Shown here: piece by piece, positions 7,218-17,995 of the stretch
How positions within the stretch are numbered: position 1 is the stretch's first letter
Layout of the letters: every line of letters starts with the position of its first letter
Assembly (NCBI GenBank): GCA_947378965.1
Contig: CANCMG010000015.1
Coordinates: forward strand, 1-56,415
Length of the DNA stretch: 56,415 bases
Reading direction: 5' to 3'
Source: Alcaligenaceae bacterium
GTDB lineage: Bacteria > Pseudomonadota > Gammaproteobacteria > Burkholderiales > Burkholderiaceae_B
Position numbers and translations under genes: made by a program
Notes under the pieces: generated by a model
The model's database searches: none
The model's input: the letters and a program-made list of their open reading frames with translations, nothing else
What the model was told of the DNA's origin: nothing

Positions 7218-8249
7218 CTAGGCGCTTTTGAGTCGCTTAACCAACGCTTCAGTAAACGCGACTGTAGTAGCTTTTCCACCCAAGTCCGTCGTCTTGACAT
7301 TGTCTTGATTCAGCGTCAGATCAATCGCGGTGCGCAGACGCGTAGCAAGCTCAGGGTGCCCAACGTGGTCAAGCATGAGCCCAGAGGCCAATAATAGTGA
7401 AATTGGGTTGGCGATCCCTTTGCCAGCAATATCTGGAGCCGTACCATGCACGGCTTCAAATATTGCAACATCCTTACCAATATTCGCACCCGGGGCCAGG
7501 CCAAGGCCGCCGACCAAACCGGCGAGCTCGTCTGACAAAATATCGCCAAACAAGTTCGAGCATAAAAGCATGTCGAACTGCCACGGGTTGAGCACAAGCT
7601 GCATGGCGCAGGCGTCAACAATACGGTCATCCACTGCGACACGGCCTTCGTATTCACGCGCGACGTTGCGAGCCTCTTCTAAAAATAATCCGGTCAAGAC
7701 TTTAAGGACGTTTGCCTTGTGTACGATCGTGATTTTTTTGCGACCATGTTTAACCGCGTATTCAAAAGCATAGCGCGCGATGCGGTTGATGCCGACGCGG
7801 GTGTTGGCCCCCGAGGACAACGCTACCGCGCGTGGGTCATCCCCGACCGGAAGATAGTGCTCATGCGCCACATAAAAACCTTCAAGGTTCTCACGAATCA
7901 AGACGATATCAATTTTGTCAAAGCGGCCGGGAACAATTGTTAAAGCAGGGCGCACATTAGCGTATAAGCCAAAGGTCTCACGCAACCGAACGTTGGCCGA
8001 GCGAAAGCCCTCGCCAATTGGGGTTGAGAGCGGGCCTTTCAGTGCCAAACCATTTTTACGAATGCTATCAATCAGTGCCGGCGGCATCGGGTCGCCACAA
8101 GCGTTAAACGCGGCCATCCCGGCGAGTTGGGTCTCCCACTTGAATGGGGCACCTAAGGCCTCAAGCACGGCAATGGTGGCTTTGACAACCTCAGGGCCAA
8201 TGCCATCGCCTGGAATGAGGGTGGTTGGGATCGGGTTGAGTGTGGTCAT
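7218..8249 (-). CDS. Isocitrate/isopropylmalate dehydrogenase-family beta-decarboxylating dehydrogenase
   Basis: A 343-residue NAD(P)-dependent enzyme that oxidises and decarboxylates a malate-type 2-hydroxy acid. Visible motifs are IPGDGIGPEV at the N-terminus, substrate-binding arginines in SANVRLRETFGLYANVRP, the RENLEGFY block, the catalytic lysine region HKANVLK, the metal-binding aspartates in SNLFGDILSDELAGL, and the cofactor loop EAVHGTAPDIAGKGIANP. The YANVRP and ENLEGFY forms resemble NAD-dependent isocitrate dehydrogenase-like or tartrate/homoisocitrate-type enzymes more than LeuB. It heads a leftward group with Bug receptors and a MetE-like gene and is divergent from the PhyH gene; the 119-base gap holds both promoters. 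The exact substrate is uncertain. Confidence 0.85.
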   Translation of the reverse strand: MTTLNPIPTTLIPGDGIGPEVVKATIAVLEALGAPFKWETQLAGMAAFNACGDPMPPALIDSIRKNGLALKGPLSTPIGEGFRSANVRLRETFGLYANVRPALTIVPGRFDKIDIVLIRENLEGFYVAHEHYLPVGDDPRAVALSSGANTRVGINRIARYAFEYAVKHGRKKITIVHKANVLKVLTGLFLEEARNVAREYEGRVAVDDRIVDACAMQLVLNPWQFDMLLCSNLFGDILSDELAGLVGGLGLAPGANIGKDVAIFEAVHGTAPDIAGKGIANPISLLLASGLMLDHVGHPELATRLRTAIDLTLNQDNVKTTDLGGKATTVAFTEALVKRLKSA

Positions 8250-8368
8250 GTTGTTTACGCTCTAGTGTTAAGTATTGCTTGTCAGGCGTGGCTAAAATCA
8301 ATGAATCCGCTAATATTAACGGTATTGATTCACGGCATCGCTTGGCCCCTTCAAAAAAGAGACTGATT

Positions 8369-9241
8369 ATGAACTTGACCCCCGCTCAATTGGCGCAGTT
8401 TGATAAAGACGGCTACCTGTTTTTCCCGGGTTTATTCACCCCTGAAGAAACCAAAACCTTGAACGCTGCAGTGCCAGAGCTTTACAGCCGGCGCGAAGCC
8501 TTCAATGTGCGTGAAAAAGGTAGCGATGCGGTGCGCACCAACTTTGCGGCGCATATGTATAGCGAGCCCTTTGCCAAGCTGGGGCGTCACCCGCGCATGA
8601 TCAGGCCGGTTGAAGAGCTGTTTGGCGAAAAGCTTTACATGCATCAGTTCAAAATCAACGGCAAGATGGCGTTTGAAGGTGATGTCTGGCAGTGGCATCA
8701 AGATTACGGCACGTGGTTGAATGACGACATGATGCCCACCGAGCGCGCCATGAATATTGCGATTTTCTTGGATGACGTGAACCCCTTTAACGGCCCGTTG
8801 ATGTTCATCCCTGGTAGTCATAAAAAGGGTGTGATTGAGGCCAAGCACGATCTCACTACAACGAGCTATCCGCTCTGGACAGTTGATAACGCACTCATTA
8901 CGCAGCTAGTTGCCCGTGCGGGTGACAAAAATGGCGGCATCGTCAGCCCAACCGGTCCAGCGGGTTCAATGATTTTGTTTCATAGCTGTTTGGTGCATGC
9001 CTCGGCCAGCAACCTATCGCCCTGGAACCGCAACGCGGTTTACTTAAGCTTGTGTGCAGTCTCGAATCACATTCGTCGTCACAAGCGCCCTGAATTCATC
9101 GCACATCGTGATTTCACGCCGATTGAATGCTTGCCCGATGACTGCCTGACCAAGCCCTACCCGATCGACTTGCCTTGGGGTAAAGGCATGCCCGCGAGTG
9201 CACTCGAAACTTCACTTGAAGAAGTGCAGGTGGCTGCATGA
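8369..9241 (+). CDS. Phytanoyl-CoA dioxygenase (PhyH)-family Fe(II)/2-oxoglutarate oxygenase
   Basis: A 290-residue non-heme iron oxygenase. The facial triad is visible as His110 and Asp112 (WHQDYGTW) and His210 (CLVHASASN); an Arg about 10 residues later (NRNAV) probably binds 2-oxoglutarate. The PGSHKKG loop is typical of PhyH and ectoine hydroxylase-like members. The frame is open upstream to 8240, but the ATG at 8369 starts the fold correctly (LTPAQLAQFDKDGYLFFPGLF). The stop overlaps the next gene's start (ATGA at 9238), so the two are translationally coupled. The oxygenase may hydroxylate a small substrate for the downstream oxidoreductase, which is inference. Confidence 0.88.
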   Translation: MNLTPAQLAQFDKDGYLFFPGLFTPEETKTLNAAVPELYSRREAFNVREKGSDAVRTNFAAHMYSEPFAKLGRHPRMIRPVEELFGEKLYMHQFKINGKMAFEGDVWQWHQDYGTWLNDDMMPTERAMNIAIFLDDVNPFNGPLMFIPGSHKKGVIEAKHDLTTTSYPLWTVDNALITQLVARAGDKNGGIVSPTGPAGSMILFHSCLVHASASNLSPWNRNAVYLSLCAVSNHIRRHKRPEFIAHRDFTPIECLPDDCLTKPYPIDLPWGKGMPASALETSLEEVQVAA

Positions 9242-11236: not shown

Positions 11237-11551
11237 ATGAAAAATGACCCAACCTTATCTTTTATCGTTCGGCAGGCGCTCGAGAATCTTGGCTTGAACG
11301 TTCGAACGGCTAGGCTTCGCCGCGGCGAAACCGAAGAGATGGCGGCGCAACGTGCCGGCGTGTCGCGGCCGACGTGGCGGCGACTTGAGGCCGGTCACCC
11401 GTCTGTATCTGTTGGGTTAGCCTTTGAGGCTTTGCAGTTGTACGGCTTTAGCGAACAGCTGTTTTCTCTTGCTGACCCCGATCTAGATGCCGAAGGTCGC
11501 TCTAAAGAGGCAGCGCGTCGACCGTTGCGTGGACGCGCAATGAATGAGTGA
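11237..11551 (+). CDS. hipB: HipB-like XRE-family antitoxin/repressor
   Basis: A 104-residue protein with a helix-turn-helix of the XRE class (VRTARLRRGETEEMAAQRAGV followed by SRPTWRRLEAG), the DNA-binding antitoxin half of a type II HipBA module. The N-terminus starts at the ATG after the AT-rich operator region. The C-terminal tail is Arg/Ala-rich (EAARRPLRGRAMNE) and may be the flexible part that contacts the kinase. Its TGA overlaps the hipA start (GTGA), so the pair is translationally coupled. Antitoxin, kinase and an inverted repeat together make a complete module; autorepression is expected by analogy. Confidence 0.85.
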   Translation: MKNDPTLSFIVRQALENLGLNVRTARLRRGETEEMAAQRAGVSRPTWRRLEAGHPSVSVGLAFEALQLYGFSEQLFSLADPDLDAEGRSKEAARRPLRGRAMNE

Positions 11552-12903
11552 TCAGTCTCATGGCTAAAACGACCTCCTCGGCAAACTCCCCAAAAGTTCT
11601 CGAGCCAACACTTTTTGTTGGAATCGAAATTCGCGGTGTGAATCACTTCGTGGGAGAACTGCGGTGCGCGCAAAGTACGCAAGATTTCGTTGCGAGTTTT
11701 CAATACGCGCCAAGCTACTTATCGCTCGCTCAAAGTGGGCATGCTTTTGCTCTTGACCCGATCAATTTGCCATTGCGTACCGACCCATACAAAACAACTG
11801 GTCGGCATTCGATCTTAGGAGTTTTATTTGATGCGGCCCCCGACGCCTGGGGCCGCACCGTGATGGCGTTGGACGAAGGTGTTTCAAGCGTGAGTCTGAC
11901 CGAGGCAAGGGTATTGCTGAAGGGTAAAGGAGCAGGTGTTGGTGCTATTTTTTTCACTACACAGCCCTTTGAATCAGGCTTTGCCCTGCCTGTTTACCCA
12001 ACAAGTCGTCTGGATCAGGTGCCCGAGTTATATGAAATTGTTAGACGAATCGAAAATGGTCTGACACTTGATATGCACAGTCGAGCGTTATTGAAGAGTT
12101 CTTGGGATATTGGCGGCGCGAGACCGAAAGCGGTCGTGCAAGATGTAGATGGTGCTCAATGGATCGCAAAGTTCCCTCGAGGTATCGACACCTTTAGTCG
12201 TCAACGCGTCGAATGGGCGAATCTACAGATGGCGAAAGAGATAGGCGTGCAGGTGCCTGCTGCGCAATTGATCGAACTCGACGGAGACGACTGCGCTTTG
12301 TTAGTTAGACGTTTTGATCGGACAGTTCAGCCTGGTCACAATCAAGTCCTAGGGCGACAACACTACATCAGTGCGGCTTCGTTGATCAGCCCGCCCGCTG
12401 ACTTTGACAAATACAAAATGGATACGGCGTTTGGCGCCAGTTATTTTTCTTATGCACGCATTGCCGACGTTGTGCGACGTTTGAGTACCCATGCTGCGAG
12501 CGATTTGACCGAACTGTATGCACGTATGGTACTCAATGTACTAGTTCATAACACTGACGATCACTTAAAAAACACAGGCTTCTTGCTTGATGCGAGCAGT
12601 CAGTCGTATGGTCTGCGCTTGGCACCATTATTCGATGTCGTGACGCAAGAGGGTGGTTCGCTACACATGTTGCATTTAGGTCCGGGGGCAAATAAAACTC
12701 GGTCGTATCAATCAGGCCGCCTTGGCTCACTAGATAACGTATTGTCTGGAGCTAAAAGTTGTGCAATCAAATCTGCCGCTGCAAGTGCCATCATCGAGCG
12801 TGTACAAAGTGTCTTTGAGCGGCGACTTGAGTTTTATCAACAAGCGAAGATGCAACAGCAAGACATTGATTCGGTAGAGGCTTGCGTCATGCAGAGGGGT
12901 TAA
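11548..12903 (+). CDS. hipA: HipA-like serine/threonine kinase toxin
   Basis: A 451-residue HipA-family kinase. Family toxins phosphorylate aminoacyl-tRNA synthetases or other translation proteins and cause growth arrest. The P-loop-like block reads DIGGARPKA, the catalytic block HNTDDHLKN contains the Asp and Asn expected of the active site, and APLFDVV holds the metal-binding Asp. All are intact, so the kinase is probably active. The GTG at 11548 overlaps the antitoxin stop; an ATG four codons later (11560) is an alternative. It is slightly longer than E. coli HipA and lacks a separate HipS-like partner. An IS605-like relic lies just downstream. Confidence 0.87.
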   Translation: MISLMAKTTSSANSPKVLEPTLFVGIEIRGVNHFVGELRCAQSTQDFVASFQYAPSYLSLAQSGHAFALDPINLPLRTDPYKTTGRHSILGVLFDAAPDAWGRTVMALDEGVSSVSLTEARVLLKGKGAGVGAIFFTTQPFESGFALPVYPTSRLDQVPELYEIVRRIENGLTLDMHSRALLKSSWDIGGARPKAVVQDVDGAQWIAKFPRGIDTFSRQRVEWANLQMAKEIGVQVPAAQLIELDGDDCALLVRRFDRTVQPGHNQVLGRQHYISAASLISPPADFDKYKMDTAFGASYFSYARIADVVRRLSTHAASDLTELYARMVLNVLVHNTDDHLKNTGFLLDASSQSYGLRLAPLFDVVTQEGGSLHMLHLGPGANKTRSYQSGRLGSLDNVLSGAKSCAIKSAAASAIIERVQSVFERRLEFYQQAKMQQQDIDSVEACVMQRG

Positions 12904-12988: not shown

Positions 12989-14161
12989 CTACAGCGCACA
13001 AGTTCTGAAACCTGAGTAGATGTCGCGACGCTCGGGGGTAAAAAAATTGCGGTACTGCACATGCCTTAACACTGAATGCGTGACGCGCGCGGCACCGCGT
13101 AAAACTTTGCGTGTACCAAACCAGGGGGCCGAATATTCGGCGTACGGGTGCACGACAAAGCCGTCAAACGGTTCAAACGTATCTTGCGTCCACTCCCAGA
13201 TTTCGCCCCAGTGAAAGTTTGGAATGGTGCGCGCGGCGCAATCCCACTCAGCTTCAGTGGGTAAGCGGCGCCGCGCCCAAGCGCAGTAGGCTTGGGCATC
13301 GTCCCAAGATAGATGAACGGCTGGCCCTTGCATGTTCATTGGCGCCCAAACGCCAAAGGTTTGAATATCGAAGCTCGAGCCAGCACGGCGAACGTATAGT
13401 GGCAAGCGATGCCCGGTGGCCGCGGTAAAGCCCATATATTGGGCCCAACAAACGGGCGCCATGTCGATTTCAAATGCTTTGAGTGCGACTGGGCGGGCGG
13501 CGAGTTCGTTATCAAAACAAAACTGGCCTGATGCAGAGCCTAGTGTCCAAACTTGAGCGGGCACACGTGTTGTTGTTTTGTGTGACCGAGGCTCGTTGGC
13601 TTTGGCTTTCGCATGAGTACCAGCATTGGGGTTAGCCTGATTTACGTGCTCGCTTACCCACATCAACTCAAAGGGTATTGCTAAAGCTTGCGCCATATAA
13701 GCACCCGCCTCAAGGTGCATGGCTTCGTGTTGTAACACCAGCCAGTAAAAATAAAGTGTCGAGCCGCTCTCTGCGTCAATCTGTAACAACGCGAGAGTTT
13801 GCTCCAGGGTCTGTTCAGCGTACTTTAGGCAAGTCTCGCGTGTTAGAAGTGCTTGATCCCAGCGCGTCACGTGTTGTACTTTAGCGCTGTCAAACCATTG
13901 GTCAGATGTGATGAGCAAAGACGTATTTTGAGGACGCCCGATTTGCCAATCCGTGCCCTCAGATCGATGCTTGTTGCGGCCGATCCAGTATTCTTGAAAC
14001 CAGGCGATGTGACCAAGCTCCCAAAGGGGGGGATTGAACTCCGGCTGATAGGGAATGTGTAGTCGATTGGCACGTTCATACGCTCGAAACGCGCTGAGCG
14101 TATGCGTACGCAGTTCTTGTAGTGCCGCGGTAAGCTCTTGCGCTTTAGCCTGACGCATCAA
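12989..14161 (-). CDS. senA: Selenoneine synthase SenA (EgtB-like: DinB-type plus FGE-sulfatase domains)
   Basis: A 390-residue two-domain non-heme iron enzyme of the EgtB family. The N-terminal DinB-like domain has the iron-ligand pattern: His51 (LGHIAWFQEYW) and His145/His149 followed by Glu151 (QHEAMHLE). The C-terminal FGE/SUMF1 domain contains LSWDDAQAYCAWARRRLPTE, EIWEWTQDTF and a terminal YSGFRTC. SenA joins selenium from a selenosugar to hercynine to make selenoneine; the assignment over ergothioneine EgtB rests on the adjacent senB and selD genes. A Lys/Ala/Asn-rich insertion (about residues 180-210) between the domains is unusual. The start lies only 15 bases from the divergent senB start. 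Hercynine would need EgtD, which is not in this window. Confidence 0.85.
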   Translation of the reverse strand: MMRQAKAQELTAALQELRTHTLSAFRAYERANRLHIPYQPEFNPPLWELGHIAWFQEYWIGRNKHRSEGTDWQIGRPQNTSLLITSDQWFDSAKVQHVTRWDQALLTRETCLKYAEQTLEQTLALLQIDAESGSTLYFYWLVLQHEAMHLEAGAYMAQALAIPFELMWVSEHVNQANPNAGTHAKAKANEPRSHKTTTRVPAQVWTLGSASGQFCFDNELAARPVALKAFEIDMAPVCWAQYMGFTAATGHRLPLYVRRAGSSFDIQTFGVWAPMNMQGPAVHLSWDDAQAYCAWARRRLPTEAEWDCAARTIPNFHWGEIWEWTQDTFEPFDGFVVHPYAEYSAPWFGTRKVLRGAARVTHSVLRHVQYRNFFTPERRDIYSGFRTCAL

Positions 14162-14176
14162 TTTTAGTGACCTTCA

Positions 14177-15154
14177 ATGTTTATAGCCGCTCAAACTCGC
14201 AAGCTCAATGTTGTCATTGTAAGTCCGGCGCTAGCGAGTACCAACAACGGCAATTGGCAGACCGCTAAGCGTTACTCCAACATGCTGTCAAAGAATTTTT
14301 CAGTACGAATCCTGCAAGAGTGGGATGGCGCTCAGACCGATGCCGTGTTGATTGCTTTGCATGCGCGTCGCAGCTACCAATCGATCAAGGCTTGGCATGC
14401 GGCGCGGGGCTCTAAAGGTTTGGTCGTGGTGCTCACCGGTACCGATCTCTATCGCGATATCAAGCAAGATCCACAGGCGCAGCAGTCGCTGCATTGGGCG
14501 GCGCGACTGGTGGTGCTGCAAGGGGCGGGTTTAGCCGAGCTGCCTGCTACGTTGCGCGACAAAGCGCAAGTGTTATTTCAATCAACGACCACGCGTCAGA
14601 CCTTGCCAAAAACTAAACGTCGTGTGCGAGCAGTGATGGTGGGCCATTTGCGTACTGAAAAATCCCCTCAAACTTTTTTTGAGGCGGCTGTCTTGTTAGC
14701 CAAACACAAGGACATTGAGCTGTGCCACATTGGAGGCGAACACGACCTCGCTTTAGCGCAACAGGCGCAGCAAACGGCGGTTCATTATCCCAATTATCAG
14801 TTTTTGGGTGCACGTAGTCATGAACAAACGCGACGATATATTCAGCGCTCGCACGTTTTGGTGCACGCCAGTGTGATGGAGGGGGGCGCCCATGTGATTA
14901 TGGAGGCCGTTTGCAGCGGTGTGCCAGTACTCGCCTCGCGGATTGCAGGCAATATTGGAATGCTAGGTGAAGACTATGCAGGATTTTTTACAGTCGGTGA
15001 CTCGCACGATCTAGCGAGCTTGCTATTGAAATTTAGAAATGAACCAGCGTTTGTGGCTCAATTACAAGCGCAGTGTGCGGCCCGTGCCACTTTATTTGAA
15101 CCCGCTCACGAATGTAGCGGATTGATTACAATCGTTCAAAACCTCTTGCCCTAG
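14177..15154 (+). CDS. senB: Selenosugar synthase SenB (GT-B glycosyltransferase-like)
   Basis: A 325-residue GT-B-fold protein. The N-terminal half has VVIVSPALASTNNGNWQTAKR and VVLTGTDLYRDI; the C-terminal nucleotide-sugar site reads EGGAHVIMEAVCSGVPVLAS, a GT4-like pattern. SenB makes a selenosugar from selenophosphate and a UDP-sugar, supplying SenA. The call depends strongly on its position between senA (divergent) and selD (8 bases downstream, same strand). No other in-frame Met exists near the N-terminus, which supports the start at 14177 and therefore the tiny divergent gap. Without context it would be called only a group 1 glycosyltransferase. Confidence 0.82.
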   Translation: MFIAAQTRKLNVVIVSPALASTNNGNWQTAKRYSNMLSKNFSVRILQEWDGAQTDAVLIALHARRSYQSIKAWHAARGSKGLVVVLTGTDLYRDIKQDPQAQQSLHWAARLVVLQGAGLAELPATLRDKAQVLFQSTTTRQTLPKTKRRVRAVMVGHLRTEKSPQTFFEAAVLLAKHKDIELCHIGGEHDLALAQQAQQTAVHYPNYQFLGARSHEQTRRYIQRSHVLVHASVMEGGAHVIMEAVCSGVPVLASRIAGNIGMLGEDYAGFFTVGDSHDLASLLLKFRNEPAFVAQLQAQCAARATLFEPAHECSGLITIVQNLLP

Positions 15155-15162
15155 GAACCTTC

Positions 15163-16212
15163 ATGGCTACTAATGAACCTCGTCTGACTTCGCTCTCACA
15201 TGGCGGCGGCTGTGGCTGCAAGATCGCGCCTGCAGTGTTGTCTGAAATTTTAAAAGGCACGTTGCAGATGCCGATTCCGAAAGAGTTGATGGTAGGAATC
15301 GCCACTGCAGATGATGCGGCCGTGTACAAAATCAACGATGAACAAGCGTTGATTGCAACGACCGATTTTTTTATGCCCATCGTTGACGACCCGTATGACT
15401 TTGGTCGTATCGCAGCCACCAATGCCATTAGCGATGTCTACGCCATGGGCGGTAAGCCGATTTTGGCGCTTGCCTTGGTTGGCATGCCGATCAATGTCCT
15501 ATCCACCGATACCATCGGAAAAATCCTAGCTGGCGGTGCCTCTGTGTGTAACACCGCAGGGATCCCGATCGCAGGTGGTCACACGATTGATTCAGTCGAG
15601 CCAATTTACGGCTTGGTGGTGTTGGGCTTGATTCATCCTGATCGCGTCAAGCGCAATGATGGTGCGCGTAAGGGTGACGTAATGGTGCTGGGCAAACCTA
15701 TCGGTGTCGGAATTTTATCGGCCGCGCTCAAAAAAGAAGCGTTAGATGCAACGGGTTATGAATCGATGCTTTCTAATGCAACAAAGCTCAACACCCCTGG
15801 TCCTGAGCTTGCTGAGCTGTCGGGCGTGCACGCCTTGACCGACGTAACTGGCTTTGGTCTGGCTGGCCATGCGCTAGAGATTGCGCGTGGCGCAAAGTTA
15901 AGCGCGCATATCAAGTGGGCAGATGTCCCCTTGCTGCCTAACGTATCGGCTCTGATTAAAGCTGGGATGGTGACCGGTGCCTCGGCCCGTAATTGGGATG
16001 GCTATGGCAAAGAGATCAAGCTTGCCGCTGGACTGCCTGCTGATTGCCAAACCTTGTTGTCTGACCCCCAAACCAGTGGTGGGTTGTTGGTCTGCTGCTC
16101 GCCCGAAACAGTGCCTGAAGTGTTGGCGGTGTTTGGCCGACACGGGTTTAATGATGCGGCCGTGATTGGCAGCATTGGCGAGGCGCAAACAACGCGTCTG
16201 TTGATCGAGTAA
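15163..16212 (+). CDS. selD: Selenide, water dikinase SelD/SenC
   Basis: A 349-residue enzyme converting selenide and ATP to selenophosphate. The catalytic N-terminus SHGGGCGCK provides Cys17 and Lys20 at the positions used in E. coli SelD; Cys, not selenocysteine, is encoded. Other family blocks are DFFMPIVDDPYDFGRIAATNAISDVYAMGG (metal and ATP binding), GGHTIDSVEPIYGL and LTDVTGFGLAGHALE. It follows senB by 8 bases and serves as SenC in the selenoneine pathway. No selA, selB or tRNA-Sec is in the window, so whether it also feeds selenoprotein or selenouridine synthesis is unknown. Its stop codon overlaps a downstream ATG (TAATG). Confidence 0.93.
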   Translation: MATNEPRLTSLSHGGGCGCKIAPAVLSEILKGTLQMPIPKELMVGIATADDAAVYKINDEQALIATTDFFMPIVDDPYDFGRIAATNAISDVYAMGGKPILALALVGMPINVLSTDTIGKILAGGASVCNTAGIPIAGGHTIDSVEPIYGLVVLGLIHPDRVKRNDGARKGDVMVLGKPIGVGILSAALKKEALDATGYESMLSNATKLNTPGPELAELSGVHALTDVTGFGLAGHALEIARGAKLSAHIKWADVPLLPNVSALIKAGMVTGASARNWDGYGKEIKLAAGLPADCQTLLSDPQTSGGLLVCCSPETVPEVLAVFGRHGFNDAAVIGSIGEAQTTRLLIE

Positions 16213-16247
16213 TGCCTAAGCTTGACGCTTGGTTTAGCTCGCAATAA
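16212..16247 (+). other. Possible 11-codon coupling ORF (MPKLDAWFSSQ)
   Basis: An 11-codon frame starts inside the selD stop (TAATG at 16210-16214) and ends inside a TAATG that forms the first possible start of the transporter gene (16247). Its start region (ATGCCTAAGCTTGACGCTTG) is an imperfect copy of that at 16283 (ATGTCCAAGCTTGGCGCTTC). It may act as a translational relay, or be the remnant of a duplicated gene start. There is no evidence of an expressed peptide. Confidence 0.3.
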
Positions 16248-16282
16248 TGACCCCCGTCGAGTCCTCTGTGGCACGGTGGCTG

Positions 16283-17995
16283 ATGTCCAAGCTTGGCGCT
16301 TCGCTTGGGCGACTAGGTTGTTTGGGTGTGTTGCTGCTGGCGCAGGCGCTGATGCAGATTTCTTTTGCCCAGCCCTTGGTAGTTGGCTCAAAACGTTTTA
16401 CCGAGTCATATATTCTTGGCGAGATCGTGAGCCAAGCGGTGACGGCAGCAGGACACGACCGGGTGATGCTGAAGTCTGGTCTGGGTAACACGGGTATTGT
16501 GTTATCGGCGTTACGCAGCGGTGAAATCGACCTCTATCCCGAATACACCGGCACCATCACGCGCGAGATTTTGAAAACGGAGCAGGTCTTGTCGCTTGCA
16601 GAGATCAATGCACGTCTCTTGCCAAGCGGGCTGCAAGCGGGCGTCTTGCTGGGTTTTGATAACTCTTATGTCTTGGCGGTTCGGCGCGACGTTGCCGAAA
16701 AATTGCAACTGCGTAGCATTTCTGATTTGGCGAAGCACTCCGAGTTGATTTTAGGATTGTCCCATGAATTCATTGGACGCAGCGATGGCTGGAAGGGCTT
16801 AGCTAACAGATATCAACTGAGCAAACTCGCGCCAAAGGGCTTGGATCACGGCCTGGCATACGAGGCGATCAGAGCGCGACAAATTGATGTGATGGATGCC
16901 TATGGCACGGATTCAAAGTTGCTGCGGGATCGACTCGTAGTCCTGCAAGATAATTTGAATTTTTTTCCAACGTATGACGCACTTTTGTTATATCGCTCGG
17001 ATGTGCCAACCAGGTTTGCGAGTACATGGAAAGTGCTGTCTGCGTTGCAGAACACAATTTCTCAACAGACAATGGGTGAGTTAAATGCCCGCGCTGAAGT
17101 CGATGGCCAGCCTTTTGCTGTCGTCGCTCGCGATTTTTTGCGAGGACAAGGTCAGGGGCAAGTGCAAGGATCAGGGCAAGTGCAAGTGCAAGGGCAAGGG
17201 CAAGGGCAAGCGCAAGTGCAAGGGCAAGGATCGGGGCAAGTGCAAGTGCAAGTGCAAGGGCAAGCGCAAGGATCAGGGCAAGTGCAACATCAGGTTCAGG
17301 TTCAGGGTACAACAAGCGCAACTGGGGTAGAGGGCAATTTGCCGCACGCCGAGCGCGCTTCGACTCGACAATCTTTTATGCACGTATTATTTGGCCCTGA
17401 TTTTTGGCGGTTGAGCGGGCAGCATCTATTCTTGGTGTTGGTGTCTTTGCTCTTAGCGATCGCGGTAGGAATCCCTTCGGGCGTGTTAATTTTTTATCGG
17501 CCTGGGGCAGGGCAGATTGTGTTGTCTGTCAGCAGTGTGATTCAAACAATCCCCTCACTTGCACTGTTGGCCTTTTTAATTTCTCTGTTTGGTTTAATCG
17601 GAACAATCCCGGCGATCGTGGCATTATTTTTGTACGCGCTGTTGCCGATCATTCAAAGTACGCATGCGGGTTTGAGCGAGATCTCGCCTTCAATGCGTCA
17701 GGCGGCCACTGCCTTGGGCCTTGGTGCTCGCGATCAACTCTGGTTTATTGAACTGCCTTTGGCGCGCACCGTGATTTTGAGTGGTATCAAAGTATCGGCG
17801 GTAATGAGTGTGGGTACTGCAACGATCGCTGCTTTCGTGGGGGCTGGCGGCTTTGGCGAGCGTATCGCTCAAGGTCTGGCCTTGAATGACACGTCGATGC
17901 TCTTGGCTGGTGCTATACCATCGGCGGGTTTGGCGTTGTTGATGCAATACGGGTTTTTTGTATTTGAGCGTAGGCTGAGCCGACGTACAAATTAA
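16283..17995 (+). CDS. Osmoprotectant/glycine betaine-type ABC transporter: binding domain fused to permease
   Basis: A fused importer subunit of 570 residues from the ATG at 16283, or 582 if the TAATG-coupled ATG at 16247 is used. I prefer 16283 because it begins a normal signal peptide ending FAQP. The OpuAC/ProX-like binding domain comes first (VVGSKRFTESYILGEI, EIDLYPEYTGTITREIL), then a Q/G/V-rich repeat at residues about 287-341. A permease with several helices and an EAA-type loop (MRQAATALGLGARDQLWFIELP) follows. Having the solute receptor N-terminal is the less common order. No ATPase gene is adjacent, so the partner must be encoded elsewhere. It follows selD closely, which may be co-transcription rather than shared function. 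Confidence 0.85.
   Translation: MSKLGASLGRLGCLGVLLLAQALMQISFAQPLVVGSKRFTESYILGEIVSQAVTAAGHDRVMLKSGLGNTGIVLSALRSGEIDLYPEYTGTITREILKTEQVLSLAEINARLLPSGLQAGVLLGFDNSYVLAVRRDVAEKLQLRSISDLAKHSELILGLSHEFIGRSDGWKGLANRYQLSKLAPKGLDHGLAYEAIRARQIDVMDAYGTDSKLLRDRLVVLQDNLNFFPTYDALLLYRSDVPTRFASTWKVLSALQNTISQQTMGELNARAEVDGQPFAVVARDFLRGQGQGQVQGSGQVQVQGQGQGQAQVQGQGSGQVQVQVQGQAQGSGQVQHQVQVQGTTSATGVEGNLPHAERASTRQSFMHVLFGPDFWRLSGQHLFLVLVSLLLAIAVGIPSGVLIFYRPGAGQIVLSVSSVIQTIPSLALLAFLISLFGLIGTIPAIVALFLYALLPIIQSTHAGLSEISPSMRQAATALGLGARDQLWFIELPLARTVILSGIKVSAVMSVGTATIAAFVGAGGFGERIAQGLALNDTSMLLAGAIPSAGLALLMQYGFFVFERRLSRRTN
17144..17307 (+). repeat. In-frame hexamer-type tandem repeat (GGGCAA/GTGCAA/GGATCA/GGTTCA variants)
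   Basis: About 27 six-base units coding for alternating Gly-Gln, Val-Gln and Gly-Ser dipeptides between the binding domain and permease. All units keep the reading frame. The last copies (CAGGTTCAGGTTCAGGG) have the same GGTTCA core as the Ser/Gly tract at 48389-48556. Unit order is irregular, suggesting repeated slippage or unequal exchange followed by substitution. Confidence 0.9.

Follow-up and report, generated by a model that had tools for sequence, protein, structure and literature searches.

Three genes at positions 12989–16212 of a 56,415-nucleotide stretch of DNA from an Alcaligenaceae bacterium (contig CANCMG010000015.1; the whole stretch is called the window below) raise the question of whether they form a locus for the biosynthesis of selenoneine, an antioxidant that contains selenium, and whether the gene directly following them belongs to the same system. 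As a whole, the region is very probably best explained, judging from its sequence, as a selenoneine biosynthesis locus that would run like the described Sen pathway, and this pathway is thereby confirmed in another group of Burkholderiales. The protein families, the key residues, the gene neighbourhood, the phylogeny of SenA and the presence of other relevant genes were established directly for the locus. Its features are listed in Table 1.

Table 1. Features of the predicted selenoneine locus and of the gene following it (positions refer to the window)
Feature	Position	Strand	Remarks
senA, selenoneine synthase	12989-14161	(-)	390 aa; start TTG 14161 or ATG 14158 (second codon)
senA/senB intergenic gap, divergent start codons	14162-14176		15 bp, from coordinates
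senB, selenosugar synthase	14177-15154	(+)	325 aa; TIGR04348, solved SenB relatives
selD, selenide water dikinase	15163-16212	(+)	349 aa; PRK00943, Cys17/Cys19/Lys20
OpuAC-type binding domain fused to ABC permease, candidate fourth gene of the locus	16247-17995	(+)	582 aa; PF04069 + PF00528
6-bp tandem repeat, ~24 copies, encoding a Gln-rich linker (binding domain to permease)	17143-17287	(+)

The three reading frames lie exactly where an earlier reading, made from the sequence alone, had placed them, and its assignment of the trio to selenoneine synthesis is borne out by family models, solved relatives, catalytic residues and a tree of SenA, all of which agree. In the profile search that had been proposed as a check, SenB and SelD are well over the cut-offs of their models, whereas for SenA the best family is the right one with a score, 409.4 bits against NF041186 of NCBIfam, that stays narrowly below the cut-off of 420. 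Against the EgtB and OvoA models the same protein scores 176 bits (cut-off 360) and 53.7 bits (cut-off 400), respectively. It exceeds the cut-off of the SenA signature TIGR04373 (85.1 bits versus 71), has the domain content DinB_2/FGE-sulfatase, and among solved structures the selenoneine synthases 8ryz and 8k5i come closest (E of about 2e-98). It has His51 as well as the motif H145-x3-H149-x-E151, a set of residues that binds iron in this family. The proposed phylogeny was also built: in a tree of 44 rows, one branch with 100/100 support divides this SenA and 38 further SenA-like proteins, all taken from sen loci, from five EgtB-like proteins, among which the EgtB of the same genome falls. 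The Lys/Ala-rich stretch between the two SenA domains, described in the sequence-only reading as an unusual insertion, is indeed present, but it corresponds to a hypervariable linker of 22 to 61 aa across 25 SenA proteins (25 aa in four of them), and the emphasis on it as unusual is not supported. As both its length and its composition vary among kin, it was ruled out as a distinct domain.

SenB is an equivalog match to TIGR04348 (434.5 bits, cut-off 300), and its solved relatives are 8k5u, 8jjn, 8jjq and 8fbx, with E values from 3e-101 to 5e-99. It keeps N20, T23, H58, R61, T83, T85, R155, K158, E231 and E239, all mutation-tested in the SenB of Variovorax paradoxus according to the available text of PMC10891094. 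The same source assigns to Val157 of V. paradoxus SenB a contact with the N-acetyl group of the sugar donor; the corresponding residue here is Glu161, glutamate being invariant at this place in 15 aligned SenB proteins, and the donor preference may differ. SelD scores 533.4 bits against PRK00943 (cut-off 299), has 3u0o as its best solved relative (E 3e-94), and carries the canonical Cys17, Cys19 and Lys20, the first and last of which had already been read from the sequence.

The senB and selD genes are separated by 8 bp, and 34 bp lie between selD and the following gene; a promoter scan of positions 13900–14500 gave one promoter-like site versus 0.3 expected. The orientation of senA, divergent from senB, was correctly recognised at the outset, but it had been considered a departure from the usual arrangement, and this part did not hold. 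When the best 80 of 575 SenB loci from named genomes were scanned by tblastn with this SenA, a senA hit was found in 55, and in 51 of these senA is divergent and less than 400 bp from senB, with three divergent at a greater distance and one on the same strand. The divergent layout is thus the ordinary state, and it was dropped as a special feature. The remaining 25 of the 80 loci gave no senA hit, and the SenA profile found none in them either; in some, the contig ends near senB (e.g., L079, with 158 bp upstream). SenB alone is therefore no proof of selenoneine synthesis, and senA is present here. Of these best 80 loci, 42 have an egtD gene in the flanking sequence fetched, which extends to 8 kb at most; a SelD of high identity is found in 38 and a low-identity SelD match in 24, the only one of the latter to be scanned, L051, encoding an oxidoreductase-SelD fusion. 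The same trio, in the same order and orientation, recurs in loci of the genus (L006, L008, L010, L011, L013-L015, L018, L019, L022-L024, L028 and L029) and in the named loci L032-L040, including that of Zwartia vadi IMCC34845 (L040), which also contains egtD and the importer gene. Clustering of neighbouring genes was dominated by long frames on the opposite strand and was used for the importer cluster only. In a plasmid collection, 109 records match and none covers more than 80% of the query; the eight matches listed cover 14–18% and lie wholly within selD.

It is also worth mentioning that in L046, L051 (Limnobacter alexandrii) and L054 a gene for a PrmC/HemK-like methyltransferase fills the divergent place of senA between egtD and senB, at approximately 6.7–7.9 kb. 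No SenA hit was found in the fetched flank of these three loci, and L070 has a relative of the methyltransferase at a distance from senB. In L046, L051 and L054 senA may be remote, or selenium may go into another product.

That the first gene encodes an EgtB of the ergothioneine type, with the glycosyltransferase and SelD as merely unrelated neighbours, could be argued from the folds common to SenA and EgtB and from the slightly low SenA score, but is practically negligible in view of the SenA tree, the equivalog match of SenB, the separate EgtB adjoining EgtD in the genome, and the recurrence of the divergent layout in nearly all of the scanned loci with a senA hit.

Selenoneine synthesis from the trio requires hercynine, which had been expected to come from elsewhere, and the search of the genome for egtD agrees with this expectation. 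EgtD is encoded in a single copy (PF10017, 314 bits) on another contig, C33, where its gene overlaps egtB; since EgtD is found only in this egtB-egtD operon, the genome would take its hercynine from the ergothioneine operon. SenB is over the cut-off in 26 of the 32 genomes of the genus, and among these 26 egtD adjoins senB in 14 (partially in G011), lies on another contig in eight, this genome included, and was not found whole in three (G003, G019 and G024). In G022 a 123-aa remnant of egtD adjoins senA (L150, 7193-7564); this genome, 86% complete, is without the importer gene discussed below and gave no further EgtD match. In the window, a gene of the HTH type and one of the HipA_C type, at 11237-12903, occupy the place of the sen-linked egtD of the sister genomes. 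A decaying locus that has lost its own egtD, with selenoneine production ended, would be in line with the absence of a linked egtD here and with the remnant in G022; such decay is nevertheless very unlikely, as the frames of senA, senB and selD are open, the catalytic residues are kept, EgtD is encoded elsewhere in the genome and the layout is kept over the genus.

For a functioning selenoneine locus, we infer that every catalytic step in this organism would proceed as follows. SelD would convert selenide and ATP into selenophosphate; SenB would join selenophosphate to a UDP-sugar and, with removal of phosphate, yield a selenosugar; and SenA, as an iron enzyme, would attach the selenium to hercynine, presumably supplied by the EgtD of the remote egtB-egtD operon, the product then being resolved to selenoneine. 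The SelD of the locus is the only one over the cut-off in its genome (the other hit reaches 59 bits versus 125), and the genome also encodes SelA, SelU and, near selA, tRNA-Sec; this SelD should therefore serve all three uses of selenium, feeding the synthesis of selenocysteine and selenouridine besides that of selenoneine. A single selenophosphate synthetase, sited in the sen locus, would thus have to supply three selenium fates. The product of the gene after selD would be an importer subunit, either for a histidine betaine of the pathway or for an ordinary betaine, working with an ATPase encoded elsewhere.

This gene, the candidate fourth member of the locus and one to which the sequence-only reading does not refer, encodes the only protein with an OpuAC domain in the genome at E≤0.001. 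Among solved sequences, engineered sensors and EgtU of Helicobacter pylori are nearest to it. In a fold search with a confident model of its binding domain (mean pLDDT 94.3), H. pylori EgtU is the best match (E 2e-28, TM 0.90, 34% identity), followed by sensors, EgtU of Streptococcus pneumoniae, and ProX. The linker between the binding domain and the permease is 73 aa long here versus 6–37 aa in 28 other rows; the tandem repeat shown in Table 1 lengthens it, as a recent expansion. No partner ATPase gene adjoins the importer gene in the window, and TIGR03415 does not single out a candidate, since the 132 ABC proteins of the genome that it matches are all below its cut-off; the nearest match in the genome to the ATPase of the G008 operon (E≤1e-45) is 39% identical and lies on contig C10. 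The most probable role of the protein is that of receptor-permease subunit in a trimethylammonium ABC importer whose ATPase is encoded elsewhere, and this importer of betaine-like compounds may belong to the selenoneine pathway. Elsewhere in the window, at 8240-9241, there is a gene for a relative of ectoine hydroxylase (TIGR02408, 159.5 bits, below the cut-off of 336.5).

In the genus, the importer gene and SenB mostly occur together. Both are present in 25 of 32 genomes (the importer of G020 being represented by just a permease fragment), whereas G022 has only SenB, G014 only the importer and five genomes neither, giving a Fisher p of 2e-4 which, as the genomes are kin, is only a guide. Judged by position, the importer gene directly follows senB-selD in 21 of the 25 genomes with both, and in G003 and G020 the importer and the sen pieces are on separate contigs. 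In G008 and G028 the order differs: the importer gene stands between a ProV-like ATPase gene and senA, after which come selD, a four-gene importer and egtD, with senB convergent, and the receptor of the four-gene importer of G008 matches TIGR04553, the "putative selenate ABC transporter", with 368 bits (cut-off 250). The importer gene is found beside sen genes in two different gene orders within the genus.

A survey of 399 genomes across the order, in which this genus is represented by this genome alone and importer relatives have at least 46% identity, counted 81 with the importer and 117 with SenB; 57 genomes have both, 24 only the importer, 60 only SenB and 258 neither (odds ratio 10, kinship ignored). 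Four weak importer matches of 34–37% identity were dropped from this table, which with them would read 57/28/60/254, and the SenB set includes one fragment below the cut-off (G286) and excludes nine matches of 173–229 bits. By genus, SenB is present in 31 of 40 importer genera versus 28 of 119 others; ten families with 41 SenB genomes contain no importer, and three families with six importer genomes contain no SenB. Besides this genome, 56 have both; separate contigs carry the two genes in 43 of these, and the distance between them is 16 kb to 3.4 Mb in the other 13. As they are never close in these genomes, tight linkage is a feature of this genus.

The positions contacting the ligand in EgtU were matched to the importer by motif and spacing and not by a printed alignment with the S. 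pneumoniae protein. S. pneumoniae EgtU contacts ergothioneine through Lys242, Thr296, Asn339, Tyr341, Glu375, Arg379, Tyr419 and Tyr443 (PMC9732360, available text); the equivalents K49, T103, N139, Y141, E174, R178, Y219 and Y243 are invariant in 26 rows of the genus, in which some genomes are probably counted twice, through two loci each. The residues used in the same source to part EgtU from ProX are Gly244, Phe293 and Tyr337, and at their positions the importer agrees with ProX. In an alignment, EgtU of H. pylori deviates there as well, so that this comparison is not decisive; the EgtU residues were rejected as proof of an ergothioneine importer. All 56 proteins compared have an arginine, Arg50, in the place of Ile243; according to the title of entry 9egj, ergothioneine binding is retained in an I243P mutant. 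Of the 14 pocket positions compared in these 56 proteins 12 are invariant; position 83 varies in both the SenB-positive and the SenB-negative class, and Asp is present at position 139 in one of 19 SenB-positive and two of 11 SenB-negative proteins from outside the genus. The pocket is nearly identical in 11 relatives from SenB-less genomes. Pocket residues were thus discarded as a mark of sen-linked importers. The ligand is likely a quaternary ammonium compound and possibly a histidine betaine.

Whether the importer belongs with the trio is a closer question. The trio may make selenoneine next to an ordinary glycine-betaine/choline importer that is there by chance in the genus, an explanation to which about an even chance is given. 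It accounts for the ProX state of the pocket, shared with relatives from SenB-less genomes, for the relatives in 24 SenB-negative genomes, for G014, which keeps the gene without SenB, for the distance between importer and SenB genes in all genomes with both outside the genus, and for the lack of an adjoining partner ATPase gene here; however, the concordance of importer and SenB in 30 of the 32 genomes of the genus, the linkage to senA/selD in two different gene orders, the association across the 399 genomes (kinship ignored) and the best structural match, H. pylori EgtU, speak against it. A possible reading, though somewhat less likely than not, is an importer that is part of the selenoneine system and takes up selenoneine, ergothioneine or hercynine, in which case the cell would both make and scavenge the compound. 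If true, selenoneine would thereby gain its first known bacterial transporter, within the limits of the literature searched, and one with a pocket different from that of S. pneumoniae EgtU, with Arg50 at the position that in the latter contacts the thione sulphur. This literature, a limited set whose listings did not contain the original Nature paper, yielded no transporter linked to a sen locus, and the available text of PMC9732360 says that the effect of selenium in place of sulphur on EgtU binding was not examined. The importer gene matters more if it does belong to the selenoneine system, and it is the worthwhile lead of the locus.

A second importer was observed near sen loci of other genomes. 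A TIGR04553-like receptor occurs in 35 of the best 80 of 575 named SenB loci (survey L032-L111; tblastn, 61–100% identity, one hit of 29% dropped), for example in L037 from 4834, L043:6076-7017 and L087:5852-6985, and further in L148:8822-9712 and L149; the assignment was confirmed by the model in L043, L087 and L148. In G008 and G028 this importer sits inside the sen operon, and no such receptor was found in the window. It is a candidate for a dedicated selenium importer, on which a statement in the available text of PMC13188914 (2026) bears, namely that a system for selenium transport with both specificity and high affinity has yet to be identified in prokaryotes.

Among known systems, the locus most resembles the sen cluster of V. 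paradoxus, which consists of SenA, SenB and SenC (Kayrouz et al. 2022, taken from PMC9814287 and PMC10891094, available text), all three enzymes being alike by family, solved relatives and residues. It differs from that cluster in having Glu in place of Val157 of SenB, in the importer subunit gene following selD, and in a SelD that is the only one over the cut-off in its genome. With EgtU of H. pylori (8dp6/8dp7) and S. pneumoniae (7txk/7txl) the importer shares its fold, the fusion of binding domain and permease, and most of the charged and aromatic ligand contacts; unlike EgtU, it has Phe51, Tyr100, Phe137 and Arg50 for Gly244, Phe293, Tyr337 and Ile243, and it lacks the adjoining ATPase gene that G008 and G028 have directly upstream. 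The glycine-betaine/proline-betaine receptor AfProX (1sw1, 1sw2, 3mam) likewise has Phe at the position of Gly244 and Tyr at that of Phe293, but it ranks below EgtU in the fold search and has Pro where the importer, which in addition is fused to its permease, has Arg50.
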